DNA from: an uncultured Ruminiclostridium sp.
Lineage (GTDB): Bacteria > Bacillota > Clostridia > Oscillospirales > Ruminococcaceae
Assembly: GCA_934462775.1 (NCBI GenBank)
Contig: CAKSIR010000022.1
Coordinates: 1-22,369 of the forward strand
Reading direction: 5' to 3'
Length of the DNA: 22,369 bases
Part shown: in pieces, positions 5-22,369 of the stretch
How the letters are laid out: each line of letters begins with the position of its first letter
How positions within the stretch are numbered: the first letter of the stretch is position 1
Notes under the pieces: generated by a model
What the model saw: the letters and a program-made list of their open reading frames with translations, nothing else
The model's database searches: none
What the model was told of the DNA's origin: nothing
Translations under genes and position numbers: made by a program

Positions 5-412
5 TTAGAGGGCTTTTTTGATAGTGAGAATGTTTTTGCCGTCACGGTAAGTGTATTCGATGTCGTCCATGCTCTTTTTCGCCATGAAAATGCCCAAGCC
101 GCCGATGTCGCGCTCCTCTGCGTTAAGGGTAATGTCAGGGTCCTGCTTTTCAAGGGGATTGTACGGCACGCCGCTGTCCTCAAAGGTGATTGCAACCGTT
201 ACAGGCTTCTCGGTTATCTCAACCACAATTTCAGCCTTGCCGATTTCGGGGTTGTAGGCGTAGTTTGCAATGTTTACAAAAATTTCCTCAACGGCAATGT
301 CAATCTGGGTCTGTATGCGCATTGAGCAGTCCGTTCCCTCAAGGGTTTCGTTTACAAAATCAAGAACTCTTTCCAGCTCATCTGTCTTAGCAGGTACAGT
401 AATTTTTTTCAT
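5..412 (-). CDS. RsbW/SpoIIAB-like anti-sigma serine kinase (HATPase)
   Basis: A small GHKL-type ATPase of 135 residues, the usual size for RsbW/SpoIIAB proteins. Such proteins bind a partner (often a sigma factor) and phosphorylate a STAS antagonist on serine. The N box is intact (VEEIFVN, residues about 41-47, with the catalytic Glu and the metal-binding Asn). The G1 box is EDSGVPYNP (about 78-86) and the glycine loop is GGLG (about 104-107). I start at the ATG at 412, because AGAAAGGTG lies 6 bp before it. A GTG at 421 would add three residues. The gene begins just after the phosphatase stop codon, so the two are probably translationally coupled. With the phosphatase and the STAS protein upstream it completes a partner-switching circuit. 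Its true target is unknown. The stop codon is only 4 bases from the window edge, so the operon may continue. Confidence 0.9.
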   Translation of the reverse strand: MKKITVPAKTDELERVLDFVNETLEGTDCSMRIQTQIDIAVEEIFVNIANYAYNPEIGKAEIVVEITEKPVTVAITFEDSGVPYNPLEKQDPDITLNAEERDIGGLGIFMAKKSMDDIEYTYRDGKNILTIKKAL

Positions 413-413
413 A

Positions 414-2657: not shown

Positions 2658-2676
2658 TTGCTGCATCTCCGTAGAC

Positions 2677-4422: not shown

Positions 4423-4715
4423 TCGATGGTCAGAATATCAACAAAACCGGTGATTTCAAATACCTCCATAACGGTAGGCTTTACGTTTGTGATAACCATG
4501 CTGCCCTGCTTGTTCATCAGCTTCTGCGTCGCGAGTATTACGCGAAGCCCTGCCGAGGAAACGTATTCAAGCTTTGTAAAGTCAAGCACCAGCTTCTTTA
4601 CGCCCTCGACAGAAGCTTTAAGCTCGCTTTCAAGCTGCGGAGCGGTGTTTGTGTCAAGTCTGCCTTCGATTGTTATTGTGAGAGTATCGTTCTCTGCGTT
4701 TTTGATAATGTTCAT
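4419..4715 (-). CDS. STAS-domain anti-sigma factor antagonist (SpoIIAA/RsbV-like)
   Basis: A 98-residue single STAS domain, the normal length for SpoIIAA/RsbV. The phosphorylation loop is seen as EYVSSAGLRV (residues about 50-59); by alignment to RsbV the likely phosphosite is Ser54. In its unphosphorylated form such a protein captures the RsbW-like kinase and frees the kinase's partner. The start is supported by AAAGGAGA 6-7 bp before the ATG. It lies 34 bp after the hydrolase gene and overlaps the MATE fusion by four bases. Likely partners within the operon are the RsbW-like kinase, the degenerate RsbW domain of the MATE fusion and the PP2C phosphatase. Confidence 0.93.
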   Translation of the reverse strand: MNIIKNAENDTLTITIEGRLDTNTAPQLESELKASVEGVKKLVLDFTKLEYVSSAGLRVILATQKLMNKQGSMVITNVKPTVMEVFEITGFVDILTIE

Positions 4716-8690: not shown

Positions 8691-8943
8691 GCTGAAGCTC
8701 CTTCTGCATGGTTTTCTGCGGCGGAAGATAAAGCACTTCCGTCTTTTTGCCGAAAACCTCTTCGTTAAGCTGCTCGAATGATATTTCCTCGCAGAGATAG
8801 CCGTTTTTGCTCATGCTTTTCTGAATGGGACTGTCGGACGCTAAATCCTCTTCGCCGTTCATGTAAGCCTCGCGCTTTTTTTTCAGTCCGTCCAGCTCTT
8901 TCTGCCAGAAGGCTCTGTTTTTAGGACTGTCGAAATATGCCAT
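8680..8943 (-). CDS. Small hydrophilic protein of unknown function (87 aa)
   Basis: An 87-residue soluble, charged protein beginning MAYFDSPKNRAFWQKELDGL, with a helical Lys/Glu-rich first part and no membrane segment or signal peptide. I do not recognise its family with confidence. Small proteins of similar size occur next to VirB4 in Firmicutes conjugative elements, but I cannot assign it to one. The start has GAGG 8 bp before the ATG. It is embedded between the solute-binding lipoprotein (23 bp upstream) and the second Ig-like protein, whose start codon it overlaps, so it is a genuine operon member and likely cytoplasmic. Confidence 0.75.
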   Translation of the reverse strand: MAYFDSPKNRAFWQKELDGLKKKREAYMNGEEDLASDSPIQKSMSKNGYLCEEISFEQLNEEVFGKKTEVLYLPPQKTMQKELQHEM

Positions 8944-8966: not shown

Positions 8967-9629
8967 TTAACTAATTTCGTAAATTGCGCCGTCAAGGAGC
9001 GCTTTCAGCTCGCTGCTGCCCCTTTTCATGGCGAAAACGTATTTCTGCGCGCTGGCATCGTAAAGATTGTTCACCTTAAAGCCGAACTCTTCCGCAATTT
9101 CCGCCGCCTTGTCGGGAGCGCAGAAATAAGCGTTTATTTTTCCCACAATAAGCGCGTCTGTCGCCTGAACCGCGTCCATAACCGCAAATTCACCGTTTTC
9201 CTCGTCGGTCATTTCCGAAAAGTCGGACGAAACCGCGGTAACCTTGCCGTCAAAATCCGCCAGGCGGTATTTGTAGTCAACATCGCTGTAAACGGCGCAC
9301 ATATTTACGGTAAGATACGGCACGGTCACAAGGTAATCCGAGCCTATCATGTTGGTGCGCTGAATGGTTGGCACTGCGAAATCCGCCTCCCCCGACTCAA
9401 GCATTTCAATCACTTCATCGTCAGAATTGCAGAAAGCGATTTCGTAAGGCAGGCCTGTTTTTTCCGCAGTATCAATTGCGTACTGAATACATTCGGAATA
9501 CATATTCTCCGAATCCTCGCCGTTAATCACCGCAACGGTAAGGGATTTCGGCAGCGCGTCGTTTCCGCCGGCGCAGGCGGACATGGTAAGAACCGCCGCA
9601 AGGGCGATTACAGCAGCTATCTTTTTCAT
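8967..9629 (-). CDS. Small extracellular solute-binding lipoprotein (type II periplasmic-binding fold)
   Basis: A 220-residue lipoprotein with signal peptide and lipobox (LTMSAC, Cys19). The mature part resembles the two-lobe SBP_bac_3/type II binding fold: a first strand LTVAVINGED, then EMLESGEADFAVPTI, where binding proteins usually have a conserved segment of this kind, and the closing strand with DALIVGKINAYFC. It is a little shorter than usual for the family (about 230-260). No ABC permease or ATPase is nearby, so it is an orphan receptor, perhaps serving the secretion apparatus or a sensor rather than uptake. Its ATG overlaps the VirB4 stop codon (ATGA), showing tight coupling to that ATPase gene. 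The ligand is not predictable. Confidence 0.8.
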   Translation of the reverse strand: MKKIAAVIALAAVLTMSACAGGNDALPKSLTVAVINGEDSENMYSECIQYAIDTAEKTGLPYEIAFCNSDDEVIEMLESGEADFAVPTIQRTNMIGSDYLVTVPYLTVNMCAVYSDVDYKYRLADFDGKVTAVSSDFSEMTDEENGEFAVMDAVQATDALIVGKINAYFCAPDKAAEIAEEFGFKVNNLYDASAQKYVFAMKRGSSELKALLDGAIYEIS

Positions 9630-12313
9630 TCTCTGAACAGCCTTTCCACATCACCGTTTGCCACAATGTCAACGCAGGTGCGGTTTGCGGGAGAGGTAAC
9701 AACAAATGCCCTGCCTCGCGGGTTGCTTATAATCTGCTCCTGCTCGCTTTCATTGATTGCGCCCGCCTTTTCGTACAGGCGGCAAAGGTCGTGCATATCG
9801 TTAGGCGCAAGGGGGAAAATGAAAGAATACTGGCAGGCGTTGATGATAGCCGTTGACTTTCTTGCGATTTCCTCCGTACCTACGAAGTCCTTGATGTTCT
9901 GCGTAATGATTATCTGCATACCGTTGTACTTTCTGATACGCTTTGCAAGCTGGAACATGAAGTCAAGGGCAATCGGGTACTTTTCGTCAATGAAAACATG
10001 GGCCTCGTCTATTACGATAACGATTTTTCTGTTAGCGCGGTGCTTGAGGTTGTAGTCCCTGTTCTTAATTATCTCGTTGTCAAGCCATTTAAGAACAAGC
10101 AGCATCTGCGCATTGGCGATAACGTTGTTCTTGTTGGACAGCAGGGACTGGAAGTTGAACACGATGAAGTTTTCCTTTGTATCAATGGACGCGGCGTGGT
10201 TCCACAGGTGGGAGTTTCTGCCGCCCGTTGCAAACTTTGAAACATAGTTAAGCAGGATACGCAGGTTCTTTTTCATATACTCGCTGTTGGACATCTGGAA
10301 GTCGATAAGTATTTTGTCGTACAGGTCGTCGAAAATCGGGTAGCTCTCCGCCTTAAGCTTGGAAAGGTCGGTGTCGGCGTCAATGCCCTTTTCGGAGTAA
10401 AGACGGACGAACAGGTTGTTCAGATATTCCATTGCGTCGTTGTCAACGTTGGGGAGAATCTGCCTGAAAAATTCCTCAAGGAACTGAAGGTGAGCGTTAA
10501 AGCTGTTTGAGCCTTCGCCGTCGTCGTCCTCGTCAGCGGCGCTGGTAATAATGTGGAACGGGTTCAGATTGCCCTCGGTCGCCTTACCTACGTCGATCAC
10601 CTTTCCGTCAAGGTTTCTCGCAAGAGCGCCGTACTCGTTTTCAGGGTCGAGAATGAAAATCTTGCTGTTGTCGGCGGCAAGGTTGGAAAGAATCGTCTTG
10701 GTCGCAAAGGATTTACCGGAGCCTGACTTACCGATAACCGCCATGTTGGAGTTTACGCGCTCGCTGTCGCGCTTGAAGAAGTTTACGAAAATCGGAGTGC
10801 CGTTGCTCTTTCCGAAGCTTACGCCGCCGTCGTCGAGAAGGTCGGGGTAAACGAAGGGGAACACCGCCGCGATAGAGGAGGAGTGGATTCCTCTGCTCTT
10901 TGCCGTAAAGCAGTCGTAGGCGGAAATATTGGCGCTTGCGTAGGTTTCAAAGGTCTGCATGAACAGATCCTGTGTCTTGAAGCTGTTTTCCGCGAGGGTG
11001 CGCTTTATCTTCTTCTTGAGCGAGGTGTACTGGGAGGAGGAAGTTACCTTTTTTCCCTCCCTCATATCCCGATAGCGCTGGGTAAGCTCGTAGTCGTATA
11101 TTGTAACGTATGTATTGGTGTCGAAAAGGGTTTCGTTTTCGCTCTGGAGCAGGGCGAGCAGCTCGGAAAGGCTGTCTATGTGATCGCTTAGCTCCATAAG
11201 CTTGGAGGTTTTGCCCGTTTCGCCGCTCTGTCCGCGAAGCTCGTCGATTGCGCGGTCGATTCGGCGAATCGACTGGTAGCGGTCAACCGGCTTGAACTTC
11301 ATCACAACGCGGGTGTTGGGCATATTGAAAAGGCGATAGCCCCAGGCATTGGTTACAAACTGGGGGTAATCGGTTATTTTAAGGGTGTGAGTGATAAGTC
11401 CGTCATACTTCACCATACGGGAGGTGAATTCCACCTTTTTCGGCAGAATCCAGTCCATATAGTCCGCAGGGTCAAGGCTATCGATCTCGCGTTCGTCAAA
11501 CACCTGATTATACTGATACTTGAGGAAAACCGCCAGCTCCTTTTGGTTCAGACGGTGTACGTCAAGTCCGCCGGTTGTAAGCTGAGCCACCGCGCTGCGC
11601 ACCTGATCCTCCAGTATCTGCTTCTTGCCGTCGAAGAAAACGAGGTAGTGGAACGAACGGTAAACCTTATCATCAAAATTGATTCGCTCAATGTCGGCGA
11701 TTCGGTCGTGGATAATGCCGATACGGACGGTAAGCTCCTCCTCGTCGATAAGTCCGCGGACGAACGCCTGCTTAAGCTCCTCCATTTTCTTCTGTTCGCT
11801 TGCAATAAAGCGGTCGTAGATAATGGGGCGGTCGATTTTTACGAGAGCGCCTGTCTGATTGCCCGAAATAGTTCTGATAACCGAGCCTAAAACGCGGTCG
11901 ATCATGGTGTTCTGGCGGCTTTCGGAAAGAAATCTGAACTCGATGGAGGGAATCTCGATAACTGCGCCGTAATACTGACCGTAGCTGATAAGATCCCCGT
12001 CGAAGCCCTCGAAAGGAGTAATATCCCGCACGCTTGCCGCTGATTTGCCCTTTTGGTCGGTAATGACCGAGGGCTGAGCCAGATGTCTTATGCCGTGAAA
12101 CAGGAGCAGATACACCTTTTCATCATCGAGAGGCATAATAAGCACCACAAATATAACCGCGTCAAGCAGCGCCAGCCAGCCGTTGTACGGAATGTTCGAG
12201 GTAATAAGCGCAACGGCTATCAGGGCGCCGAAAAGTCCGATTGCCACATCGACAATGGAAACGCCCTTGAAAAGCTCGGTCATGACTTTGGTTTTCTTCG
12301 GTATAATTCGCAT
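9626..12313 (-). CDS. virB4: VirB4-type T4SS ATPase with fused N-terminal PrgI/VirB3-like membrane segment
   Basis: An 895-residue VirB4/TraC/TrbE ATPase that powers T4SS assembly and transport at the inner face of the membrane. Walker A is GKSGSGKS (residues 528-535), Walker B is IVIVIDEAH (about 764-772), and a RecA-type stretch QIIITQN follows (about 800-806). The first about 62 residues carry two hydrophobic helices (about 18-38 and 44-62), resembling the separate PrgI/VirB3 protein of Firmicutes systems. The length, longer than about 800 for stand-alone VirB4, fits such a fusion. A charged region at about 170-210 and 415-440 lies in the N-terminal VirB4 domain. It is 24 bp downstream of the second VirB6-like gene, with AAAGGA before the ATG. 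Confidence 0.93.
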   Translation of the reverse strand: MRIIPKKTKVMTELFKGVSIVDVAIGLFGALIAVALITSNIPYNGWLALLDAVIFVVLIMPLDDEKVYLLLFHGIRHLAQPSVITDQKGKSAASVRDITPFEGFDGDLISYGQYYGAVIEIPSIEFRFLSESRQNTMIDRVLGSVIRTISGNQTGALVKIDRPIIYDRFIASEQKKMEELKQAFVRGLIDEEELTVRIGIIHDRIADIERINFDDKVYRSFHYLVFFDGKKQILEDQVRSAVAQLTTGGLDVHRLNQKELAVFLKYQYNQVFDEREIDSLDPADYMDWILPKKVEFTSRMVKYDGLITHTLKITDYPQFVTNAWGYRLFNMPNTRVVMKFKPVDRYQSIRRIDRAIDELRGQSGETGKTSKLMELSDHIDSLSELLALLQSENETLFDTNTYVTIYDYELTQRYRDMREGKKVTSSSQYTSLKKKIKRTLAENSFKTQDLFMQTFETYASANISAYDCFTAKSRGIHSSSIAAVFPFVYPDLLDDGGVSFGKSNGTPIFVNFFKRDSERVNSNMAVIGKSGSGKSFATKTILSNLAADNSKIFILDPENEYGALARNLDGKVIDVGKATEGNLNPFHIITSAADEDDDGEGSNSFNAHLQFLEEFFRQILPNVDNDAMEYLNNLFVRLYSEKGIDADTDLSKLKAESYPIFDDLYDKILIDFQMSNSEYMKKNLRILLNYVSKFATGGRNSHLWNHAASIDTKENFIVFNFQSLLSNKNNVIANAQMLLVLKWLDNEIIKNRDYNLKHRANRKIVIVIDEAHVFIDEKYPIALDFMFQLAKRIRKYNGMQIIITQNIKDFVGTEEIARKSTAIINACQYSFIFPLAPNDMHDLCRLYEKAGAINESEQEQIISNPRGRAFVVTSPANRTCVDIVANGDVERLFRE

Positions 12314-12337: not shown

Positions 12338-14650
12338 TTACTGGTCTTTGAACTGAGATGAATCGGCGGAGCCGTTTGAAATGCCCGGAAGCGGCGAGCC
12401 GAAGCTTTCCGCGCCCTTGAAGCCCATATCGTTCACCATTTCCACAACAGCCGAGCCTGCCGCGCCGGTTTCGTGGCTTTCTCTCGTGTAAAGCTGAGAG
12501 CCGTCAAATACGCTTACGGAATGGAGCGTTTTTCCGTCCGCGCTCGGAGTCATATGAACGCCCTTAGCGCCCATGCTGCGGAGCGAACCGAACGAGTTCG
12601 CCATGCTCCTTGTGCCAAGGCCCGACCTGCCGTTAAGCTGCGCGCCCATTCGCTTGTAGTAGTTTGACATAAAGTCGCTGCCGCCGCTCTTTTCGGCGCA
12701 GAATTTCTTGGCGTCCTCCACCTTCATCATACGCGGAATCATCGCCATATCCGACGGCACGTCAAAGTTAAAGCCTGCCGCGTTCATAAGTCCTACCTGC
12801 GGACCGTTCGGCTTGGTTTTATAGTAGAACGAGCTTTCGTTGGTGTTCCGCATCATATCGATAACAGGAGCGAACTTCGGGTTCAGCCCCCTCATCTTAG
12901 CATACTCTGCGTCCTTTTGATCCTTCGGAACAAAGTCAGGCACAAAGGTGTAGCCCTCCGGTATGTTCGCCTGCTTGTCGGCGGTGCCGAAAGAGGTCAT
13001 GCCCTCGGAAAGGTCGAACATATTCATGTTCTGCTGCGCGTTTTCCGAGAAGGTGCTTGTGAAATATTTCGATATATTCTGCTGATCCGTAAAGCTTCCG
13101 CCTGCTGTGAACGCGTCCGAATCGTGACCGCCGCCCGACGGAATGTCCGCGCCGTTTGCCGAGCCGCCGTCATGTGTATTCGGCGGCATGATCTGCGGCC
13201 TGCTGCCTGCGCCCTCCGGACCTGTAAGAGCAAGCATAGGCTTACTTGCGCCGCCGTTAAATTTTTCGCCGCCCGACATTGAGCCGCCGGCGTTAAATTT
13301 GGAGGAGCCGTGGCTCGCCGCTGCGCCTGCTCCTGCGCCCGCCGCTGCGCCTGCCGCCGCTGCGGGAGCTTTCTTGCTGAAGCCGCCGCGGACGCCCTTT
13401 ACAACCGCTCCCTTAACGCGGTGGAACGCGCCGCCCATCATGCCCATTGCAGCCATGTTGGTCATATGCTCGTCATAGCCTACGCCCTGATCGAGTATGG
13501 TTGTGAGCATTGAGGAGGACTTGTAAACAGCCCATGCGCCGCCCATGATGAAAATAAGCTTTACAAGGTAATCGCCCAGGTTGCCGACAATGTTGTCGCT
13601 GAAGAACCGTATCTTGTCGCTCATTATCAGCGGCACGACCATCAGGTACAGCCTCATGCCGATTGCCGAGCCGTAGCCCGAAAATACCTTTGCGATAAAG
13701 GTGGAGCGCCACTTTCTGAACTTTTCACCGTCGTCAAGCACCATTGTCGAAACAAAGTATGGCGAGGTGATGTACAGCAGGATAATGTCGAAAATTCGCC
13801 GTATGAAGTTCAGCAGGCACATACCCACTACTATTATAATAAATATCGAGGAAATAAAGCCGATTGCGTAGTCAACCTTGCTCAAATGGTAGTAAACGGG
13901 CCACTCCCAGTAGGAGATTTTTCCCGACGCAAGGTCGGACCATGGCTGAACGCTCATGCTCGCCACCGACGGCTTTGAGCCGATAACGCCGCTTGTGTCA
14001 AGGGAGCTTACCACGAGAATGGATCTGCCCAAGGACATATCGTTGCCTTGGCTCAGCGCCGTTGAAACCGTGTTCAGAATTACCGAGGAAAGGTAAAGCA
14101 TAAACACCATCGTAAGCGGCACGATCAGGAAATTTATCATGGTTTTCAACACCGATTTAAGCACCTGACCCACCGGACGCTTGTTCTCGAAATCAAAGTC
14201 GAGGGTGGAGCGTATCGTGGCGTAAATTGCGAAAATAAGCGCCAGACCGAACGCAACAAGCGTAACCGCAACAAGCACGCTGCGAATACCGTCGTCAAGA
14301 ACCAACACATTCAGCAGCGAATCCGTCCTCGTTATGCCGTCCGCCCCTCGGTAGGTGACGGGCTGAATGCCGATAAGCACGTCGAACGCCGTCTGCATTA
14401 CGTCTATGATGTAAAGGAACAGCTCGAACAAGGCGTAAACTCCCTTTAGCCACCAGTCGAGAATAAAGCTGCCCACATAGTCCATTACCGTTTTGACAAC
14501 CGGTACCAGGATAGGCTCTACAATCGTTTCGATAATAAACTTGAATATAGAGCTGAGAATACTGGTAAGCCAGTTTCTGAGAGGGCTTAATATTGCGTTC
14601 AGTACTTTATTAAATATGTCGGAAAACAATCCCATTATGCTGATAGGCAC
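12338..14650 (-). CDS. VirB6/TrbL-like T4SS channel protein 2
   Basis: A 770-residue polytopic protein. It starts with an amphipathic/hydrophobic region (about 1-100), followed by helices at about 122-144, 165-195, 262-282, 285-303, 325-343 and 362-380, then a soluble C-terminal half. A block at 282-314 (RRIFDI, LYITSPYFV, LDDGEKFRKW) also occurs in the neighbouring gene and marks the VirB6/TrbL-like family of Firmicutes conjugation systems, thought to line the transfer channel. Residues about 427-460 are Ala/Gly-rich; the remaining about 300 residues are hydrophilic, with no recognised domain. Translation starts at GTG (14650), because AAGGGGTG is 7 bp before it; the next in-frame ATG is 15 bp further and too far. 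It lies 17 bp after its paralogue. Confidence 0.85.
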   Translation of the reverse strand: MPISIMGLFSDIFNKVLNAILSPLRNWLTSILSSIFKFIIETIVEPILVPVVKTVMDYVGSFILDWWLKGVYALFELFLYIIDVMQTAFDVLIGIQPVTYRGADGITRTDSLLNVLVLDDGIRSVLVAVTLVAFGLALIFAIYATIRSTLDFDFENKRPVGQVLKSVLKTMINFLIVPLTMVFMLYLSSVILNTVSTALSQGNDMSLGRSILVVSSLDTSGVIGSKPSVASMSVQPWSDLASGKISYWEWPVYYHLSKVDYAIGFISSIFIIIVVGMCLLNFIRRIFDIILLYITSPYFVSTMVLDDGEKFRKWRSTFIAKVFSGYGSAIGMRLYLMVVPLIMSDKIRFFSDNIVGNLGDYLVKLIFIMGGAWAVYKSSSMLTTILDQGVGYDEHMTNMAAMGMMGGAFHRVKGAVVKGVRGGFSKKAPAAAAGAAAGAGAGAAASHGSSKFNAGGSMSGGEKFNGGASKPMLALTGPEGAGSRPQIMPPNTHDGGSANGADIPSGGGHDSDAFTAGGSFTDQQNISKYFTSTFSENAQQNMNMFDLSEGMTSFGTADKQANIPEGYTFVPDFVPKDQKDAEYAKMRGLNPKFAPVIDMMRNTNESSFYYKTKPNGPQVGLMNAAGFNFDVPSDMAMIPRMMKVEDAKKFCAEKSGGSDFMSNYYKRMGAQLNGRSGLGTRSMANSFGSLRSMGAKGVHMTPSADGKTLHSVSVFDGSQLYTRESHETGAAGSAVVEMVNDMGFKGAESFGSPLPGISNGSADSSQFKDQ

Positions 14651-14667: not shown

Positions 14668-16341
14668 TCAGTGCTGTTCTTCATCTTCATCGTCCTGACT
14701 GCCGTCATTGAACGAATCGTATTTATCCTTAGCGTCCTGTATCCTGTCAAAGGCAGAGGATTTGTTCTCGCCGCCTTTTCCGTCTGTAATCTGTTTCTGA
14801 GCCGAGCCGCCGCGCTGACTGCCGGAGCCGCCGCCCGATTTGCCGTCCGTGATAGCCTTATGCGAGCCGCCTGACGAGCCGCCCGAGAAGCCTCCCGAGC
14901 CGCCTGCGCCGCCTGCCGAGCCGCCTGCCGCTCCTGCGCCGCCTGCTGAACCGCCTGCTGCGCCCGCGCCGCCTGCCGCTCCTCCGCCTGCGCCTGCAAG
15001 ACCGCCTGCCGAGCCGCCCATTCCGCCTGTGAACGCTGCTCCTCCGCCTGCCGCTCCTGCGCCGCTTGCTGCTGCGCCCGCGCCGCCTGCCGCCGCGCCT
15101 GCGCCGCCTGCTCCTGCTGCCGCACCGCCCGCTGCCGCTGCGCCTGCCGCGCCGCCTGTTGCAACGGTTGCGCCTACCATTGCGCCTACCTGTGCAGCCT
15201 TTCTGCCTGTCGCCATAAGCATCATTGAGCTTTCGCGCGCCGCTCTTGCAGCTTCGGGGCTGATTATCTCAATAATCATCGCCTGTGACTTGAACGCCGC
15301 GTAAACGCCGCCTATGAGCAGAATCGACTTAATCAGCATATCGCCGAAGCTGCTGCCGGTAAACTTGATATTGGAGCTCATAATGGTAGGAACAAGAAGC
15401 ATTACCAGCTTCATTGAGAAAACAATTCCGAAGGATGAAATCATCTTGCCGATAAGCACCTCCTGCCATTTCTTGAACATCTGACCGTTGTCCAGCGGTC
15501 TTGTCGCCACGAAGAACGGCGAGGTTATATATAAAACAAGTATGTCGAAAATACGCCGTATAAACACGAATATCGAGCACGCCATAATTACGGCGGTGAT
15601 GATTGCGATTATATACGGGAGCGCAAAGTTGTAATCAAGCAGGTTAAACCGCTTATCAACATCTCCGCGGCTGTATATCGCCTTGGGATTATCAAGGAAG
15701 TATTTGTGGTTTGCGTCGGTAAAGCTTGCATTGTCATCGGTTGCGTAGTTAAACGTGCCGGTAAGGAATATCGTGCTTGCGAAGGTAGGGGAGGAGTCGG
15801 TACCCATGCCTACGTTTATGGCGTGGTCGGTCGCTACTAGGATTGTCGTTGCAAGCTGGGAGCCGAGATACATCATAAACGGGATTATGAGAAACGAAAC
15901 CATTGCCTTGAGCGCCTGCTTCAGCACTTCGCCAACCGGGTGTTTGTTTTCGAGAATATTGTCGCCGATGGATTTGCCCACTGAATATATGGTGAATATC
16001 ATGCAGATTCCGGCAGCCACAAGGGTTATGCCGATGAAGGCGGTTCTGATGCTGTCGTCCGTCAGGAAAACGTCCAGTATATACATATCCTGACCGCTGC
16101 TTTTGACTGTTTTTACTCCCGAAAAAATATCGAAAATGTTCTGAAGAACGTCTACAATGCCGAGAAGTAATTTCAGCATATTGTAAAGTCCCTCAACAAA
16201 CAGCGCCTTAATTATAGGGTAAACAACCTCAAGGAATATGCTCTGCAATATTTTTACAATAGGGTCTATGAACGTATTGAAAAGCGTTGTGAATATGCTT
16301 TTCATAGCGCCTGTTAAAATAGCTGACAAGCCTAAATACAT
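14668..16341 (-). CDS. VirB6/TrbL-like T4SS channel protein 1 with Gly/Ala-rich tail
   Basis: A 557-residue membrane protein paralogous to the next gene. Helices are seen at about 38-75, 98-121, 145-170, 238-262, 264-280, 302-320 and 336-352. The shared block RRIFDILVLYITSPFFVAT (262-280) with PLDNG and FKKW matches the other VirB6-like protein. Residues about 397-493 are almost purely Gly, Ala and Ser, followed by a hydrophilic tail with two ITDGK copies (497-501 and 518-522) and an acidic end (DDEDEEQH). The family contributes to the inner-membrane channel of T4SS. AAGGAG stands shortly before the ATG, and the gene is 36 bp after the first Ig-like protein gene. Having two family members in a row suggests a hetero-oligomeric channel. 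Confidence 0.85.
   Translation of the reverse strand: MYLGLSAILTGAMKSIFTTLFNTFIDPIVKILQSIFLEVVYPIIKALFVEGLYNMLKLLLGIVDVLQNIFDIFSGVKTVKSSGQDMYILDVFLTDDSIRTAFIGITLVAAGICMIFTIYSVGKSIGDNILENKHPVGEVLKQALKAMVSFLIIPFMMYLGSQLATTILVATDHAINVGMGTDSSPTFASTIFLTGTFNYATDDNASFTDANHKYFLDNPKAIYSRGDVDKRFNLLDYNFALPYIIAIITAVIMACSIFVFIRRIFDILVLYITSPFFVATRPLDNGQMFKKWQEVLIGKMISSFGIVFSMKLVMLLVPTIMSSNIKFTGSSFGDMLIKSILLIGGVYAAFKSQAMIIEIISPEAARAARESSMMLMATGRKAAQVGAMVGATVATGGAAGAAAAGGAAAGAGGAGAAAGGAGAAASGAGAAGGGAAFTGGMGGSAGGLAGAGGGAAGGAGAAGGSAGGAGAAGGSAGGAGGSGGFSGGSSGGSHKAITDGKSGGGSGSQRGGSAQKQITDGKGGENKSSAFDRIQDAKDKYDSFNDGSQDDEDEEQH
14863..15153 (-). repeat. Low-complexity Gly/Ala codon repeat within the VirB6-like gene
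   Basis: About 290 bp of imperfect GGC/GGA/GCA/GCC-type units (seen on the plus strand as repeated gccgcctgc, gcgccgcctg and cctgccgctcc) encode the Gly/Ala/Ser tail at residues 397-493. Some 20-30 bp blocks recur almost exactly. The repetition leaves alternative frames open and may allow length variation by slippage. Confidence 0.85.
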
Positions 16342-16377: not shown

Positions 16378-17952
16378 TTATCTGATATTGAAATGACGTC
16401 TGCTGTAAGCTGCGTAGCCTATCAGTCCTCCAACGAGTCCGATTACGACTATTATGATTATAAAGCCCATTGCGTTCATCTGATAGGGGATTTCAAATTC
16501 GGCTGTAACGCAGTTTCCCGCCTCGTCGAAAATTTCCACCTTGTATTTGCCGTTGTCGCTGAACGAAAGGGAGCGGGCGGTAAACGGCTGACCGTCCTTT
16601 GTAACGGTGAATGTTTTCATGTCGTCGGTGACAATCTCGATTTCAACCAGTCCGTTTTCGGCAACGTTTTTTTCGTTGACGCCGTAAATGCTTATCTCAG
16701 GGGGAGTTGTGTCCCTTGTCGTTTCAACGGTGGTTGTGTATTCGCCCTTGGTTACGATGAAATTGTACCTGCCGTCCTTGTCGGTTTTAACGCTCTGAAC
16801 CGCTGCGGCTATCTGCTTGCCCTCAAGTCCCGCAAAGGAAATTATGCAGCCGCTTGGCGCAGTGTAGCTTTCCATGCTGTTCGTAAGGGAGGGGATTATC
16901 TCAAAGGTGTAGAGCGGAAGCGGCTCGCTGCTGCCGTCGTATATGTAGACCTCGTATTTTCCGATTTCGTTATACGAAACGGAGGAGTCGATTTCTTCCT
17001 CGTCCTTGTAGACCTTGGTCATTATCTCGCCGTTAAATTTCAGCGTTACGCTTTCGGTGGTAGTCATTCCGCAGGGGATATTGGAGGTAAACACCGCGCC
17101 GTTTCTTGTTCTCACCTCAAAGCCCGTAAGAGCGGTGTAGGTTTCGGCAATAAGCTCGGTGCTGCCCTTTGGCTTGTCGGGATTTACGGCGGCTTCGGGA
17201 GGCTGTGTGGTAGTCTGAGCGGCGGCGGAAGCGCCTGCGGCTGACGTGACTTCGGCTGTGACTGCTGACGAGGAGCTTTCCTCGGCTGTAATCAGCGGAA
17301 CAAGCTCCGTTGTGGTCGCTTCGGTCGCCTCGGTTTCCACTATCTCGTACATTCCGTCCTTATCCTCGCCGACAGCAGTTTCGGATTGGTCGGGAACATC
17401 GGGAGCAATAACCTCCTCGGCTGTTGTTTCCTCCGGCTTAGGCTCGACTATCTTAAAGCGGAACAGTCCGAAATAAACCGTGTTTTCCTCCGCGCCGTAA
17501 ACGTCCTTGCTGTCAACCAGCAGATTCAACACATAGGAGCCTATCTCGTCAATCTCCATGCGGTTGACAAAGGGAACCTCCTCGCCGTCCTTTTCCATTG
17601 TGCAGGAAACGTTCTTAGGCAGCTCCACGGAAACGCTTTTGTCGGTTATTCCGCCGTTTGAAACGGTGGAGTAGAACACGAAACGGTTATTCATTACCTC
17701 CTCGTAAAGGTTGTAGTCATAGTTGAACTTTTCTTCAATTTCCATAGGAGCATAGCTGATTTTTACTTCGGTTTCCGTTTCAAGAACAGCCTCGGCGGAA
17801 ACGCCGGCAGCCGCTGTTGTTTCCTCCGCTGTTTCCGATTCGGGCAGCACCTCTCCAACCCCCTCTGCGTACACGCTCTGACTGAGCATAAGCAAGGCGG
17901 CAAAAAAAGCTGTAAACCCTTTTCGGAAAATGTTCCTATTTAATTGTTTCAT
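16378..17952 (-). CDS. Signal-peptide, Ig-like, C-terminally membrane-anchored surface protein (paralogue 1)
   Basis: A 524-residue type I membrane protein. Signal peptide about 1-29 (ending VYAEG); Thr/Glu/Ala-rich linkers at about 37-65 and 180-260 that look like flexible extracellular spacers; Ig-like beta modules in between and after, ending with RDTTPPEISIYG and DEAGNCVTAEFEI; a C-terminal helix (about 496-515) and a basic tail (SRRHFNIR). It shares module order and motifs with the protein at 7503-8690, so the two are paralogues. It sits 17 bp after the VirD4 gene and 36 bp before the first VirB6-like gene, inside the transport core. That position suggests a structural or surface role in the apparatus, but no known T4SS component looks like this. 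Confidence 0.82.
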   Translation of the reverse strand: MKQLNRNIFRKGFTAFFAALLMLSQSVYAEGVGEVLPESETAEETTAAAGVSAEAVLETETEVKISYAPMEIEEKFNYDYNLYEEVMNNRFVFYSTVSNGGITDKSVSVELPKNVSCTMEKDGEEVPFVNRMEIDEIGSYVLNLLVDSKDVYGAEENTVYFGLFRFKIVEPKPEETTAEEVIAPDVPDQSETAVGEDKDGMYEIVETEATEATTTELVPLITAEESSSSAVTAEVTSAAGASAAAQTTTQPPEAAVNPDKPKGSTELIAETYTALTGFEVRTRNGAVFTSNIPCGMTTTESVTLKFNGEIMTKVYKDEEEIDSSVSYNEIGKYEVYIYDGSSEPLPLYTFEIIPSLTNSMESYTAPSGCIISFAGLEGKQIAAAVQSVKTDKDGRYNFIVTKGEYTTTVETTRDTTPPEISIYGVNEKNVAENGLVEIEIVTDDMKTFTVTKDGQPFTARSLSFSDNGKYKVEIFDEAGNCVTAEFEIPYQMNAMGFIIIIVVIGLVGGLIGYAAYSRRHFNIR

Positions 17953-17969: not shown

Positions 17970-19943
17970 TTATGTGTTATCTGTATCAAGAATCAGCTCG
18001 TTCCGTTCTGCAATGTTATAGAATACCTCGTCGGCAAAGAACGGGTGCGCCTTGGTTTCCTCCAAACTCATCTGTCCGAATTTGTACAGCGGGCATTTGT
18101 AGCTTGGGGTGAACTTGGTTTTCAGCGGGTAGTTGCCGAAGGTTACGATGATTGCGTTGCCCGTATCGGACTTGTTGTTGATTTTTTGCAGCTCGGACGG
18201 GTAAATAAGCGGTCTTGTCTGAAGCTGTGAGGAGAAATTCACATCTCCCTGATGGGAGCTCATGCTTCTTGAAACGCTGGTGGTGGAAACAGTAACGTTT
18301 CCGCACAGCTCGCTGAACTCCTTGCAGGTTTCAATATCGTTTGAACCGATGAACATCTTCATGCCGCAGTTGGATTTAACAATGTCCGCGATATTCTTGC
18401 CGTACACGTTTTCAAGCTGAGCGTAGGACTGAACAACCATGTTGAACCAGATTTTTCTGGAACGTCCTACCGTAATCATCTTGTCGAACTTATCGATTTT
18501 CGGCATATTACCGAACTCATCGAGAATGAAGTACACGTTTCTCGGCAGGGACAGATCCTCTCTGGAGGACGCCTTCTTGATAAGCGCCTTGTAGATACAG
18601 AGTATGAACGCTGCCGCCAGGGTGTGTCTTGTATCCTTTTCGTCAGGGATTTTGAGGAACAGGGCGGTTTTTTCGTCCGCGAAGATTGCGGGGTTAATAT
18701 CCATTGCGGAGGTAAGGGAGCAGATACCCTCGTCGTTGAAGATGGACAGCTTGTCGAACGCGATGGACATATAGCTTGCCAGGGTGTTCTCGGCGGCGCT
18801 GCACACCTGCTTTGATAAAGTTACCGCCTTTGAAAGGATATTTCTGCCGTAGAAATAGTTTTTAAGCTGCTCGAAGTTGTTGTCGGAGTTGCCGATTGCC
18901 TTGTTTACGTTGAAGAAGTTGAACTTTTCGCGGGTCATTTCAAGCTCCGGCTTTTCGCTGTCCTCAAGCATTGCCAGAATGGTCGCCATGATGATTGAGC
19001 GGGCGCCCTTTTCCCATACGGGATCGTCCGAGCTTTCAATCGGGCAGAGCACGCCTACCAGGTCGTTCAGATCCTCGTAAACCTCGTCGTATATTTTCTG
19101 GCGCTGAACCTTTATATGGGCTATCAGGCCCTTTTTGTCGCTGTACGCCTTGCCCTCGTATTCGTACCATATATCGTTGTAGGTGTCCGCTCCGTCCACC
19201 AGCTCAAGCTCTCCTGTGGGACCGTTGCGGCGGAGGATTCGGCTGCCGGTCTTGACGTACTGCTGATAGCGGTCGTAAATATCAGTCAGCGGATTCCATC
19301 TGAATGACGAATACGGATCGCGGAGGTCAAGAACCATTACCTTGTAGCCCCGCTCCTTCAGGAAGCCCGAATGGAGCTGGAAAAGCTCGCCCTTAGGGTC
19401 GGTAACGATCATTGAAGAGCCTGCGTCCGACTTGCCCAGTATCTGAATCATCGGGTTGATGAAGGTGGTTGTTTTACCTGAACCGGTAGCACCGATTATA
19501 AGACCGTGCATAGGCGACGCAAGGTTGACGTGCAGTCCTTTTTTGTCGTAGATAGCGCGGACGGGGATACCGTCCTTTTTGCTTTCGCCAAGCTTCAGGT
19601 ATTCGTATGGGGAGAAGTTGAAGTCCCTTTCCTTTTCGGTCATAAAGCGGGAGTTTTCAAGGGCGCTGCCGTCGATTGCGTCCTTTTTGCCGCCCTTAAG
19701 AGCGCCCTTAGTGCTTTTGAACGAGCCGGGGCGGGTAACAAGCACCAAAAGGAACACTACCACCGCCGCAACCGCGCCGTAAACGTAGTTCATGGGATTT
19801 GCAAAAACGGAAAGGTCAAGCAGCAGCAAATAATCCCCCGCCTTTATTGCAGGAACAAGATTTGTCATCAGCGTTCCCAAAACAAAAGTGCTGAGGAGAA
19901 GTATTAAAACGCCTGCTATAAGCCATTTTACAAATTTATTCAT
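17970..19943 (-). CDS. virD4: VirD4/TraG-type T4SS coupling ATPase
   Basis: A 657-residue coupling protein that recruits substrates to the T4SS at the membrane. Two N-terminal helices (about 7-30 and 50-70) are followed by a soluble ATPase domain: Walker A GATGSGKT (151-158), the TDPKGELF motif (181-188), Walker B FILDEFGNMP (472-481), and the Q505 region (NMVVQSYAQ) typical of TraG/VirD4 proteins. Its length and motifs fit the VirD4-like group of Firmicutes conjugative elements. It starts with AAAGGA upstream of the ATG, 23 bp after the CPBP gene. In conjugative elements such a gene usually accompanies a relaxase; none is present in this window, so the substrate may be protein or an unlinked DNA molecule. 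Confidence 0.95.
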   Translation of the reverse strand: MNKFVKWLIAGVLILLLSTFVLGTLMTNLVPAIKAGDYLLLLDLSVFANPMNYVYGAVAAVVVFLLVLVTRPGSFKSTKGALKGGKKDAIDGSALENSRFMTEKERDFNFSPYEYLKLGESKKDGIPVRAIYDKKGLHVNLASPMHGLIIGATGSGKTTTFINPMIQILGKSDAGSSMIVTDPKGELFQLHSGFLKERGYKVMVLDLRDPYSSFRWNPLTDIYDRYQQYVKTGSRILRRNGPTGELELVDGADTYNDIWYEYEGKAYSDKKGLIAHIKVQRQKIYDEVYEDLNDLVGVLCPIESSDDPVWEKGARSIIMATILAMLEDSEKPELEMTREKFNFFNVNKAIGNSDNNFEQLKNYFYGRNILSKAVTLSKQVCSAAENTLASYMSIAFDKLSIFNDEGICSLTSAMDINPAIFADEKTALFLKIPDEKDTRHTLAAAFILCIYKALIKKASSREDLSLPRNVYFILDEFGNMPKIDKFDKMITVGRSRKIWFNMVVQSYAQLENVYGKNIADIVKSNCGMKMFIGSNDIETCKEFSELCGNVTVSTTSVSRSMSSHQGDVNFSSQLQTRPLIYPSELQKINNKSDTGNAIIVTFGNYPLKTKFTPSYKCPLYKFGQMSLEETKAHPFFADEVFYNIAERNELILDTDNT

Positions 19944-19966: not shown

Positions 19967-20839
19967 TCAGTGTATCTGAAACTCTATCGGCTGAGGATTT
20001 TCGTCCTCCTTTGCCTCTCTGAGCAGTGCTTTCATGCAGAAGAAAATCAGCGTTCCGCCTCCGATAACGTAGATTATCTCGACTACCGCGTTGTCGAAAA
20101 GGGCGGTGTAAAGGTCGCTGCCCTTAGTGAGCAGCATAGGTATCGCCACTATGTTGTAGCTCGTGTGCAGGACGTATGAAACGGTAAGGTTGTGAAATCT
20201 GTCGCGGAGCAGCGTAAACACAAAGCCTGCGCATATCGCCATTGCCACCCACAAAATCTGTATGTGGGGGATTCCGAACGCTACCGCAAGTATCGCCGTC
20301 GTCGCCCACGAACCGAAAGCGCCGCGCAGCGTGCGGTACATAAAGCCGCGGAAGAATATTTCCTCAAACAGCGGAGCTATCAGCGCAACGTAAACAAGCG
20401 AGATTGCAATGCCGTCCGTGTTCATTACCGAGGAGGTAGAGCTTGTGTAATTGTCTATCCATTCCTGCGGAAAGGGGAGCAGCGCTGCAAGCGAGCTCAT
20501 CGTAAGGTTTAAGCTTACTCCGAGAATGAAAAGCTGTATGTAGACTCTGGGGCTTTGCTGCCGCGGATATATCTGGAGTATTTCAACGATACTGTCGTCC
20601 GACCTTTTGGTGAATACCTTGGCAAGTATTACGAAGTAAACCACCATTCCCGCAAGGGTAGCCAGAATGTTAAGGGTCATGTTTCCTTCAAGGAAAGTGG
20701 AATCGAACACAATGTAGAATATTTCGGGAATTAGGAAATTGCCTGCGTAAACCAGCAGGAATTTCCCGAACGCTGGAAAATGAGCAAGGAACTTACGGTT
20801 CTTTTCTATAAGCTCCTGCTTTTCTTTTTCATCGGACAT
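19967..20839 (-). CDS. CPBP-family intramembrane metalloprotease (CAAX-protease-like)
   Basis: A 290-residue polytopic membrane protein of the CPBP (CAAX protease and bacteriocin-processing) family. The catalytic motifs are present: EEIFFRGF (Glu159, Glu160, Arg164), FGIPH (Phe188 to His192) and HTSYN (His225, Asn229). Seven or eight hydrophobic segments span the length. Family members cleave or process membrane substrates, or act in peptide-related immunity. Here it sits between the pilin-like gene and VirD4. Processing of the pilin or of another apparatus component is a reasonable but unproven guess. The ATG lies 20 bp past the upstream hairpin, with only a weak ribosome binding site (AGGTAACAGA), so translation may be lower than for the pilin. 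Confidence 0.9.
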   Translation of the reverse strand: MSDEKEKQELIEKNRKFLAHFPAFGKFLLVYAGNFLIPEIFYIVFDSTFLEGNMTLNILATLAGMVVYFVILAKVFTKRSDDSIVEILQIYPRQQSPRVYIQLFILGVSLNLTMSSLAALLPFPQEWIDNYTSSTSSVMNTDGIAISLVYVALIAPLFEEIFFRGFMYRTLRGAFGSWATTAILAVAFGIPHIQILWVAMAICAGFVFTLLRDRFHNLTVSYVLHTSYNIVAIPMLLTKGSDLYTALFDNAVVEIIYVIGGGTLIFFCMKALLREAKEDENPQPIEFQIH

Positions 20840-20916: not shown

Positions 20917-21222
20917 TTATGCTGCTGTTGTGGTTGCTACTGCTGTATTTGCCCACTCTGTCATTGCAGGTAAACCAATCTGTAATGCAACTAAAAGAAC
21001 GAAGATGAGTACGAAACCGATGATTGCGTTCTTAAGGGAGTTCTTAGCCTTTTCTCTGTCCTGCGGTTCCTCAGCCTTAGCGAACTTTACGCCTAAGAGG
21101 ATGCAGAAGATTGCGCCTAACGCACCGACAATGATAAGCGCCGGAGTTACAACCATGTTAAGGAGGCTGATAATAGGAGCGGCCATCTGTTCAAATGGGT
21201 TTGATAAAATCGTGAAGTTCAT
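20917..21222 (-). CDS. T4SS pilin-like small membrane protein (VirB2/TrbC-type)
   Basis: A 101-residue protein with two hydrophobic helices (about 15-46 and 64-84) joined by a charged loop (KFAKAEEPQDREKAKN). The pattern of a Gly-containing first helix, a loop with Lys/Glu and Ala-Lys, then a second helix starting AIIGF matches T4SS pilin-like proteins of Gram-positive bacteria. Such proteins form the extracellular filament or part of the channel. A strong ribosome binding site (GGAAAGGA) is 7 bp before the ATG. It is the first gene after an ECF-type promoter and is followed by a hairpin, the arrangement expected for a highly expressed structural subunit. No clear signal-peptidase site was seen; the N-terminus is short and could be cut. 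Confidence 0.8.
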   Translation of the reverse strand: MNFTILSNPFEQMAAPIISLLNMVVTPALIIVGALGAIFCILLGVKFAKAEEPQDREKAKNSLKNAIIGFVLIFVLLVALQIGLPAMTEWANTAVATTTAA

Positions 21223-21277: not shown

Positions 21278-21305
21278 TATACGCGGCGTCTGCCAAAACG
21301 TTACA
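21278..21305 (-). promoter_or_regulatory. ECF-type promoter driving the pilin and secretion genes
   Basis: On the minus strand TGTAAC (21300-21305), a 16-bp spacer, then CGTATA (21278-21283), followed by AAC. The -10 has the CGTA core of ECF sigma promoters such as SigW, and an A/T-rich tract lies just upstream of the -35. It sits about 55 bp before the pilin ATG and is nearly identical in core and spacing to the promoter at 22206-22233. Confidence 0.75.
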
Positions 21306-21311
21306 ACTTTT

Positions 21312-21818
21312 TTAATAATTTTTTTCGTAGATTTTTTTTAGCTTTTCTACGGCTCTTGTATGTATTACTCTTGCATTACCCTCTGTCAGCCCCATAAGCT
21401 CACCAATCTTTTTGAAGCTGTAATCGTAGTAATATCGCGCTATAATTATATCCCGATCTCTTTTCGGAAGCTGCTCAAGGCTTTCCGCAAGCTGATTCAT
21501 GCTGTCCGTTCTGAGGTAACTTTCCTCAGGGGTTTCGCCCGTATCAACTATAACCAAATCCTCGTAATCGGTTCGTTCACCACCCGAAGAACCGGAACGA
21601 TAATGGCTGATAAGCGTATTCCTTGTAATAGTGAAAATCCATGTTGAATAGGTTGCCTTCGAGCTGTCGTAGGAATCTATTTTTTCAACAATTTTCGCGA
21701 AAACCTCCGAAAGAAGGTCCTCCGCATCCTCGCGGTTACGGAGATGATTGTAAAGATAGCCGTAAATTTTACTGCGATAACGAAGATATAGGTCCTCAAC
21801 AATCTCCCCGTTTGTCAT
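21312..21818 (-). CDS. ECF-like RNA polymerase sigma factor
   Basis: A 168-residue sigma-70 family protein of the ECF type, holding region 2 (about 8-74, including the DAEDLLSEVFAKIVEKIDSY core and TWIFTITRNTLISHYR for promoter melting) and region 4 (about 110-164, LEQLPKRDRDIIIARYYYDY and a helix-turn-helix ending in HTRAVEKLKKI). No region 3 and no C-terminal extension are present. AAGGAG lies 7 bp before the ATG, inside the end of the upstream small gene, so translation is coupled. Two promoters of ECF type flank the gene (22206-22233 and 21278-21305), consistent with autoregulation and control of the T4SS genes downstream. No membrane anti-sigma gene is next to it; the 75-residue upstream protein is the closest candidate. 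Confidence 0.93.
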   Translation of the reverse strand: MTNGEIVEDLYLRYRSKIYGYLYNHLRNREDAEDLLSEVFAKIVEKIDSYDSSKATYSTWIFTITRNTLISHYRSGSSGGERTDYEDLVIVDTGETPEESYLRTDSMNQLAESLEQLPKRDRDIIIARYYYDYSFKKIGELMGLTEGNARVIHTRAVEKLKKIYEKNY

Positions 21819-21822
21819 TGAC

Positions 21823-22050
21823 TTACTCCTTGCCTAAATCTTTACTTATTTGTCTGTCCGCCTTTTGAGGCGGCTTGTTAATCATCTTGTCGGATTTGCC
21901 GTCAACCAATTCATCAAAGGTTATTAGCTCCGACAGGAAATTATTCTCATAAGTTTTGTCGAAATCGGCTATCAGAGTTTTCAGTCTGTCATTTTCTTCG
22001 AAATGCTGAAAATCAAGCATTGTTCCGACCTGCTTTTCAAAGCTGTCCAT
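21823..22050 (-). CDS. Small acidic protein preceding the sigma factor (unknown, 75 aa)
   Basis: A 75-residue soluble protein starting MDSFEKQVGTMLDF, with amphipathic helical stretches and a Lys/Glu-rich C-terminus, and no membrane helix. I do not recognise the family. The start is the ATG at 22050, because AGGGGG sits 7 bp upstream; alternatives at 22056 (ATG) and 22077 (TTG) fit the ribosome binding site poorly. Its last codons carry the ribosome binding site of the sigma factor gene. Small proteins paired with ECF factors often regulate them, so a soluble anti-sigma or sensor role is possible but rests only on position. Confidence 0.75.
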   Translation of the reverse strand: MDSFEKQVGTMLDFQHFEENDRLKTLIADFDKTYENNFLSELITFDELVDGKSDKMINKPPQKADRQISKDLGKE

Positions 22051-22097
22051 CTGCATTCCCCCTGCGGGCAGCGACAATGGAAAAACTTACATAGATT

Positions 22098-22126
22098 ATT
22101 ATAATATATTTTTTTCCGTTTGTCAC
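22098..22126 (-). promoter_or_regulatory. Sigma-A-type promoter for the sigma-factor operon
   Basis: On the minus strand GTGACA (22121-22126), a 17-bp spacer, then TATAAT (22098-22103). The spacing is ideal. It lies about 48 bp before the start codon of the 75-residue gene and could give basal expression independent of the ECF factor. Confidence 0.65.
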
Positions 22127-22129
22127 TAC

Positions 22130-22146
22130 TTTTTTTTATTTTTTTT
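22130..22146 (-). promoter_or_regulatory. A-tract UP-like element
   Basis: On the minus strand two runs of eight A separated by one T lie just upstream of the GTGACA -35 hexamer. Such tracts bend DNA and contact the alpha subunit of RNA polymerase, raising promoter strength. Confidence 0.5.
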
Positions 22147-22161
22147 GGATAATTCACAATA

Positions 22162-22208
22162 ATAAACAGGTGTGCAATAACTCTGTTTTGTGGTGTTCAC
22201 CTGTTTAT
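22162..22208. repeat. Perfect 11-bp inverted repeat overlapping the ECF promoter start region
   Basis: ATAAACAGGTG at 22162-22172 and CACCTGTTTAT at 22198-22208, separated by 25 bp. The right arm overlaps the -10 and probable transcription start of the ECF promoter. It could be an operator or a chance palindrome. Confidence 0.6.
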
Positions 22209-22233
22209 ACGCAGGAGGGACGGATTCGTTACA
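22206..22233 (-). promoter_or_regulatory. ECF-type promoter upstream of the sigma-factor operon
   Basis: On the minus strand TGTAAC (22228-22233), a 16-bp spacer, then CGTATA (22206-22211) followed by AAC. Core hexamers and spacing match the promoter before the pilin gene, and both carry G after TGTAAC. The T-tract of the preceding terminator forms its A/T-rich upstream side. Together they suggest autoregulation by the sigma factor. Confidence 0.75.
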
Positions 22234-22272
22234 AAAAAATAAAAAAAATTTGCCGTCCGCAGAACGGACGGC
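22233..22272 (-). terminator. Rho-independent terminator of an upstream gene outside the window
   Basis: On the minus strand GCCGTCCG, loop TTCTG, CGGACGGC (8-bp perfect stem, 22252-22272), followed by AAATTTTTTTTATTTTTTT. It ends transcription arriving from beyond the right edge and insulates the sigma operon. Confidence 0.85.
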
Positions 22273-22369
22273 ACCAGCGTGTCGAAAAAAGCCAAATTTA
22301 AAGTTTAGGTCAAGCCTTTTCAAAGGCTTGCAGGTTCTTAGGGCAGCGCCCTAAGTCGCTCTCCGCAGA
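22273..22369. repeat. Palindrome-rich intergenic segment, candidate dispersed repeat
   Basis: Non-coding sequence with two close perfect palindromes: CAAGCCTTT/AAAGGCTTG (22311-22330, 2-base loop) and CTTAGGGC/GCCCTAAG (22337-22355, 3-base loop). The composition and pairing resemble short dispersed intergenic repeats seen in Ruminococcus-type genomes. This is recalled, not searched. No gene is visible here. Confidence 0.55.

Follow-up and report, generated by a model that had tools for sequence, protein, structure and literature searches.

Exported anti-sigma factors are known, FlgM being one, and in Bordetella the sigma factor BtrS is of the ECF type. The anti-sigma factor of BtrS, BtrA, is itself secreted through a T3SS, as one account describes (PMC10732220). 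In Brucella melitensis, an ECF system is described as affecting expression of the T4SS. Nearly all of the known functions of Gram-positive T4SSs concern DNA transfer, as summarized in a review that presents the 89K system of Streptococcus suis as apparently the first effector translocator among them (PMC12857230). Among the open-licence PMC papers that our literature searches listed, none describes by title or abstract the system that we report here.

In this report, we analyse a 22,369-nucleotide stretch of DNA from an uncultured Ruminiclostridium sp., the whole of which we call the window. From sequence comparisons, we consider it probable that two matching sites in the window are promoters of the ECF sigma factor encoded between them, and that the regulon of this factor comprises the sigma factor itself, a Gram-positive T4SS, and candidate substrates bearing a common C-terminal tag. 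A sequence-only reading of the window had proposed a self-activating sigma factor whose main target is the secretion cluster; taken as a whole, that interpretation is partly supported by our results.

Two sites and the genes that they bracket

Exactly two matches to TGTAAC-N(14..18)-CGTATA occur in the window (21278-21305 and 22206-22233), both on the minus strand and both with a spacer of 16 bp. The sequence-only reading had reported these two copies and had seen no third; it was exact on both counts, as no third exact copy of TGTAAC-N16-CGTATA exists in the window. Both sites read TGTAACG ... CGTATAAAC. A chance pairing is ruled out: none of 100 dinucleotide-shuffled windows contained any match to the variable-spacer pattern, and the number of exact matches expected in the window from base composition is 0.0026. 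With up to two mismatches allowed, the window yields four matches versus 1.01 ± 1.05 expected (at least four occurred in 2 of 100 shuffles), and given this expectation we take the two additional matches to be chance. ECF-type promoters have AAC in the first element and CGT in the second, and the window sites look ECF-like in both respects.

Site 2 begins 6 bp after the stop codon of the sigma gene and ends 55 bp ahead of the ATG of the pilin gene, and site 1 ends 155 bp ahead of the ATG of the small gene that precedes sigma. A sigma-A-like promoter, GTGACA-N17-TATAAT, lies nearer to the sigma operon and, as judged by eye, is present too in G001 (1.7 Mb), the nearest relative compared; neither this promoter nor the hairpin upstream of site 1 figured in the sequence-only reading. 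The ECF-type site would thus add feedback rather than be the sole promoter of this operon. Directly behind site 1, at 22165-22205, there is an inverted repeat, AACAGGTG ... CACCTGTT, which is possibly a regulator site; it was not seen by eye at the equivalent place in G001.

Along the minus strand, the hairpin, site 1, the sigma-A-like promoter, the 75-aa gene, the sigma gene, and site 2 follow one another and lead into the pilin operon. This operon runs from the pilin gene through those for the CPBP protease, VirD4, the 524-aa protein, two VirB6-like proteins, VirB4, a lipoprotein-like protein, and the 87-aa protein to two more genes. From the pilin gene through to a lipase-like gene after the operon, the intergenic gaps are -11 to 77 bp. 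The features are as follows.

22251..22273, minus strand: terminator-like hairpin, just upstream of site 1 (three such in the stretch versus 1.7 ± 1.5 in shuffles)
22206..22233, minus strand: site 1, TGTAAC-N16-CGTATA, before the small-protein/sigma operon (G001 counterpart, L001:3578-3605)
22098..22126, minus strand: sigma-A-like promoter, between site 1 and the small gene (consensus match at 11 of 12 positions)
21823..22050, minus strand: 75-aa protein (84 aa from the TTG at 22077) with LDFQHF N-terminal motif and C-terminal tag; candidate exported sigma partner
21312..21818, minus strand: ECF sigma factor, 168 aa (Sigma70_r2 and r4; TIGR02937 above cut-off)
21278..21305, minus strand: site 2, TGTAAC-N16-CGTATA, before the pilin/T4SS operon (G001 counterpart, L001:4503-4530)
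20917..21222, minus strand: T4SS pilin (PF18895 and NF045849 above cut-off)
19967..20839, minus strand: CPBP/Rce1-like intramembrane protease (PF02517 above cut-off)
17970..19943, minus strand: VirD4-like coupling protein (PF02534; NF045973 above cut-off)
16378..17952, minus strand: 524-aa protein with a hydrophobic stretch near its C-terminus (without family match; 66% in G001)
14668..16341, minus strand: VirB6-like membrane protein 1 (NF045848 and NF045889 above cut-off)
12338..14650, minus strand: VirB6-like membrane protein 2 (NF045848 and NF045889 above cut-off)
9626..12313, minus strand: VirB4-like ATPase (PF19044 above cut-off; NF045975 at 560 bits, just under its cut-off of 590)
8967..9629, minus strand: solute-binding-protein-like lipoprotein of the T4SS operon (PF00497 at 23.6 bits, under its cut-off of 26.4)
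8680..8943, minus strand: 87-aa protein with C-terminal tag, inside the T4SS operon (tail alignment and profile)
7503..8690, minus strand: 395-aa membrane-anchored protein of the T4SS operon
6094..7488, minus strand: 464-aa lipoprotein-like protein, with which the T4SS operon probably ends
5..4715, minus strand: SpoIIE phosphatase, HATPase, and STAS-like genes, beside the T4SS operon

Genes for VirB4, VirD4, VirB6-like proteins, and the pilin are all present in the window. In the sigma protein, Pfam finds Sigma70_r2, r4, and r4_2 only, so that regions 2 and 4 are present and region 3 is not, as is proper to the ECF type. We infer that this sigma factor reads TGTAAC-N16-CGTATA.

The motif among relatives

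A comparison of the sigma protein with genome contigs gave six loci, of which L001, in G001, encodes a protein 86% identical to it and the five others proteins of 25-29% identity. The T4SS genes of G001 are those of the window, split over contigs C12 and C62 (VirB4, 92% identical; VirD4, 91%). Five exact TGTAAC-N16-CGTATA sites were found in G001. Three are at the sigma/T4SS locus (before the small-protein/sigma operon, before the pilin gene, and divergently before a gene for a 435-aa protein), and two are unlinked to it, on C22 and C126, 37 and 36 bp before the genes for paralogues of 903 and 912 aa. The hexamers are kept between the window and G001, and the spacer sequences differ. Sites with one mismatch in G001 were considered and rejected: we regard the five inexact sites as noise because, with one mismatch allowed, there are 10 matches in all, the five exact ones included, versus 16 for the reversed pattern.

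Exact sites occur in seven of the 71 genomes of the genus of G001. A genome scan had been proposed in the sequence-only reading, and its outcome in the nearest relative is favourable, as three of the five sites lie at this locus; of the 70 other genomes, six have one exact site each and the rest none. We widened the pattern to TGTWAC-N16-CGTATA after TGTTAC was seen in one site of G399, a more distant genome. In this form, it is present in 66 of 396 family genomes, with at least four copies only in G001 (five), G249 (four), and G399 (seven); the next have three. G001, G249, and G399 are also the only 3 of the 396 that hold the 912-aa protein. The motif behaves as a regulon motif, as had been proposed. 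VirB4 was found at E 1e-40 or better in 43 of the 396 genomes; G001, G249, and G399 alone have a VirB4 that is 72-92% identical, a second clade of 15 stands at 49-54%, and the rest at 33% or less.

Each of the 16 sites in G001, G249, and G399 stands ahead of either the secretion operon or a gene for a protein bearing the C-terminal tag described below (two of the tags having been judged by eye), and all 11 exact sites in G249 and G399 directly precede a gene with a tagged product. One exact site in each of these two genomes is followed by a small tagged gene, then by a variant site (GGTATA), and then by the pilin gene. Further variants precede the gene for a 433-aa tagged protein after sigma in G399 (GGTATA) and that for a 907-aa tagged protein in G249 (AGTATA); a 482-aa tagged gene in G249 has a weak version of the site only, judged by eye. 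No site was found before the sigma operon of G249 or G399, and none was added in L114-L121 when the first element was relaxed to T[GC]T[AT]AC. Identity of the sigma protein is 48-50% in G249, G399, G478, and G481. As to the secretion cluster being the main target, the secretion operon is indeed a target, but one of several: most sites precede tagged genes, and many of these are unlinked.

An alignment of 22 sites from the window, G001, G249, and G399 (18 exact and four variant) has invariant TGT, AC, and GTATA, partly through the selection of sites. It also has, 7-12 bases past the second element, a [C/T]GAAAA-like stretch, which was not a selection criterion. For the 15 sites with a set start codon, the distance from site to start is 36-74 bp in 13 and 154-155 bp in the two sigma-operon sites.

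A common C-terminal tag

When aligned, the C-terminal ends of the window's 87-aa protein, of the 75-aa proteins encoded before sigma, and of the proteins of 435, 903, and 912 aa share an ISFDEL-like core (ISFxEL-like), followed by a lysine-rich tail in which a proline pair is frequent. Against G001, a first profile made from six tails (four from G001 and two from the window) gave five matches, namely its own four members and a protein encoded on C62 that was absent from the profile and that is the orthologue of the window's 87-aa gene. Four of these five tagged proteins are encoded directly behind a site, and the fifth within the T4SS operon. Database relatives of the 912-aa protein number 21, one at 98% identity and the others at 32-45%, and their tails, by eye, end in versions of the tag; the protein has no match among 72,556 plasmid records.

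A later profile, A3, consists of 22 tails, mostly from G001, G249, and G399. It matches five proteins in G001, nine in G249, and 12 in G399, versus three at E 0.2-0.8 in 10 other genomes; one of the matches in G249 (E 0.0023) and three of those in G399 (E 0.03-0.3) are weak. One of these three in G399, an 835-aa protein, matches at E 0.148 only, and the tag of a small protein of the same genome was judged by eye, the protein being absent from the A3 matches. The 482-aa tagged gene of G249 (L122:2653-4101, on contig C16) lies about 3.5 kb from a weak relaxase match and may sit on a mobile element.

The tag is found on unrelated bodies (large proteins, the 75-aa type, and the 87-aa type) and also on the products of unlinked genes. 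With the last 50 residues removed, 18 of the 20 longer tagged proteins are linked by distant homology, and two of the ORF87 type form a second group; therefore, much of the sharing of the tag among the larger proteins may be common descent. The most hydrophobic 19-residue stretch scores at most 1.51 (Kyte-Doolittle) in all 26 tagged proteins, and thus a signal peptide or membrane span is obvious in none of them. In a model of the 912-aa family, with P0001 (98% identical to the G001 protein) as the first row, helices predominate and the mean pLDDT is 80.9; residues 875-912, which hold the tag, have a pLDDT below 50 and are predicted to be disordered. The fold of this family has no PDB match at E 0.001. 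No Pfam family exceeds its cut-off in the 15 tagged proteins scanned, a set apart from eight others that are longer than 100 aa or of the ORF87 type and from the other small ones.

Substrates of other T4SSs carry a C-terminal, disordered signal. Most simply, the tag would be what the VirD4 coupling protein recognizes, and tagged proteins would then be exported via the T4SS. In that case, the regulon would comprise a Gram-positive type IV secretion machine together with its protein substrates.

Sites in further genomes

G249, G399, G478, and G481 belong to one genus and are not independent of one another. Among 43 genomes of the genus of G399, new genomes with many sites are G464 (nine), G481 (six), and G478 (five); the others, G399 and G249 apart, have 0-2. 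An out-of-sample test, set beforehand and without a threshold, applied the previously built A3 to the 20 new sites and to 12 control sites from other genomes of the genus, the query being the longest frame starting within 300 bp behind each site. All five sites of G478 precede A3-matching genes (E 0.0097 or better), as do five of the six of G481 (E 6e-7 or better). The gene at the sixth site of G481 lacks an A3 match; the body of its product matches the 435-aa protein, and its end is tag-like by eye. None of the 12 control sites, two of them without a frame, gave an A3 match.

In G464 (L164-L172), none of the nine downstream proteins passes the tag profile (best E 0.021), two of the nine are homologues of the 912-aa protein, and neither sigma nor the T4SS was found in the approximately 298 kb surrounding these sites, which make up about one-seventh of that genome. 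The stretches fetched from the others contain sigma in G478 and G481 and the pilin, CPBP protease, VirD4, and a VirB6-like gene in G478. G478, G481, and G464 are related to G249 and G399, and some of their sites are identical, so that the new genomes lack full independence.

The small protein beside sigma

Of 56 loci fetched as best matches, 54 gave a match to the sigma factor. A small gene encoding D[F/Y/L]QxF lies directly before sigma in 14 of the 54, including the 10 best-scoring; L036 has a “site” without a partner gene and is not counted. TCTAAC-N16-CGTATA stands ahead of the pair in five of the 14 (two of the five being identical), and three others keep TGCGTATAAA with a different first element. 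Self-activation is supported by the site that precedes the sigma operon in the window and in G001 and by the like one that precedes those of five of the 54 more distant homologues, but no such site was found in G249 and G399.

Sibling sigma operons at L077, L080, and L082 (G213, G016, and G095, respectively), with TCTAAC-N16-CGTATA before the partner gene, lie beside ABC exporter genes. The neighbours of the G016 sigma gene are NHLP exporter subunits (TIGR03796 and TIGR03797 above cut-off), and three sibling loci have Nif11 leader matches, one above cut-off and two just below. The small proteins of the siblings have an LSDDxLxLAAGG- or LxDSxLxxNAAGE-like tail, not the T4SS tag. The T4SS genomes encode a protein whose N-terminus is similar (LDFQxF, or FDFSRF/FDYSRF) and whose end is the tag; its gene adjoins sigma in the window and G001, and precedes the pilin gene, not sigma, in G249 and G399. 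As the same partner domain has a double-glycine-like tail at peptide ABC exporter loci, the export signal seems swapped to suit the exporter. The 75-aa protein has one database relative, 99% identical, and its single-chain model is poor (pLDDT 58.5).

By analogy, this arrangement suggests that the small protein may be an exported anti-sigma factor like FlgM or BtrA. The 75-aa protein would be a sigma-partner domain (LDFQxF) joined to the C-terminal tag of the cargo; as the machine opens, the partner would leave, sigma would be freed, and more machine and cargo would be made. We put forward only tentatively, as a rather unlikely proposal, the complete scheme of an effector-type Gram-positive T4SS in which the ECF sigma factor is under the control of an anti-sigma factor that leaves the cell through the T4SS itself.

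Discussion

The motif is rare, is concentrated in genomes with this T4SS, and coincides with the tag, all as read from the sequences. In our best explanation, site 1 would exert positive feedback on the small-protein/sigma operon, above the basal sigma-A-like promoter, and site 2 would turn on the pilin-VirD4-VirB6-VirB4 operon. In relatives, the same type of site would stand before chromosomal genes elsewhere that encode soluble proteins with a disordered C-terminal tag. Against this explanation are the nine sites of G464 with no tag match, the sigma operons of G249 and G399 with no site, and the weak site of the 482-aa gene of G249.

The regulon itself could be right and the T4SS be a conjugation machine or its remnant, with the tagged proteins as conjugation accessory factors. 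We think this quite unlikely. The T4SS proteins do match families named for mycoplasma ICEs, and G249 contains two relaxase matches, one at C5:105858 and another, some 3.5 kb away from a tagged gene, at C16:360566, as well as a tyrosine-recombinase-like frame (L114:19095-19997, by eye) about 10 kb from its pilin gene. However, the relaxase family PF03432 is found neither in G001 nor in the T4SS loci of G249 or G399, no relaxase is found among the proteins scanned with Pfam in the window, and the 912-aa protein is absent from the 72,556 plasmid records. The window proteins scanned include no integrase either, in a stretch that breaks off at both sides. It is unlikely, too, that the tag serves for docking or assembly, with the tagged proteins acting within the donor cell or as components of the machine. 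Such a role would accord with the larger tagged proteins being mostly of one distant superfamily and with one tagged protein being encoded within the T4SS operon, but the tag is C-terminal and predicted to be disordered, like the signals of other T4SS substrates, and it is found on unlinked genes and unrelated bodies.

The identity of the regulator and its restraint also admit alternatives. That the motif is read by another ECF sigma factor, or by a MalT/LuxR-like regulator beside sigma in G249 and G399, seems improbable to us. There are seven matches to the sigma query in G001, but the other match among those listed is 23% identical. A 788-798-aa frame lies directly before sigma, in the place of the small gene, in G249 (L114:12207-14603) and G399 (L116:11816-14182), and the G399 frame, which was scanned, has weak MalT/LuxR-type matches, all below cut-off; yet the MalT-like gene is absent from the window and L001 loci, and in 5 of 54 loci a like site precedes the operon of a more distant sigma homologue belonging to the same group. 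A further alternative concerns the anti-sigma part only, and we regard it as possible, if on the whole doubtful: SpoIIE/RsbW/STAS partner-switching genes near the T4SS, not the small protein, would restrain sigma. The window has its SpoIIE, HATPase, and STAS-like genes (5-4715), STAS (60%) and RsbW-like (57%) genes follow the T4SS operon in G399, a STAS gene (60%) does so in G249, and weaker STAS genes (28-34%) occur in three second-clade T4SS loci. None of the partner-switching genes adjoins sigma, however, while the small protein is directly before it in 14 of 54 loci, including the 10 best.

Comparison with known systems

Our best explanation, of an ECF regulon of secretion machine and tagged cargo, resembles the BtrS/BtrA system in placing a secretion system under a sigma factor that, if we read the locus correctly, is restrained by a small secreted protein. 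It differs in that the Bordetella machine is a T3SS of a Gram-negative bacterium, and in that the present small protein is a sigma partner by prediction from its sequence. Like the S. suis 89K system, ours would be a Gram-positive T4SS proposed to export protein; the review's account of 89K names one exported protease and no sigma regulon (PMC12857230), whereas in our case many candidates are defined, by a promoter motif together with a shared C-terminal tag.

The pilin, VirB6-like, and VirB4-like proteins match the NCBIfam families of the mycoplasma ICE-type T4SS (Mbov_0395 to Mbov_0397), but the present VirB4 is just under the family cut-off, and no relaxase was found at the locus. The NHLP/Nif11 peptide-export loci (G016, scanned with families; G213 and G095, by the look of the sequence) share with ours a sibling sigma factor, a small DFQxF protein before it, and TCTAAC-N16-CGTATA before the pair; there, the exporter is an ABC transporter with peptidase, and the tail of the small protein differs from the T4SS tag. 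The second-clade T4SS loci (G294, G114, and G080) have relatives of the pilin, VirD4, and VirB4, and in G294 and G114 a sigma gene directly precedes the pilin gene (L140:896-1372 and L141:681-1151). However, the ECF-type sigma before the pilin is only 23-28% identical, no TGTAAC-like pair precedes the T4SS genes in the five second-clade stretches examined, and three tagged proteins of G001 have no match in these loci. L140 and L141 also contain a STAS gene and a frame of more than 1700 aa after VirB4.

A sigma regulon that joins a secretion machine to its cargo is known; such a regulon in a Gram-positive T4SS with one common tag is new, as far as the literature was searched. The system provides a regulator, a promoter motif that can be scanned for in any genome, and a tag that lists candidate substrates. 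With these, the question can be put to the test in relatives of gut Clostridia. Should the small protein turn out to be an exported anti-sigma factor, the principle embodied by FlgM and BtrA would extend to the T4SS.
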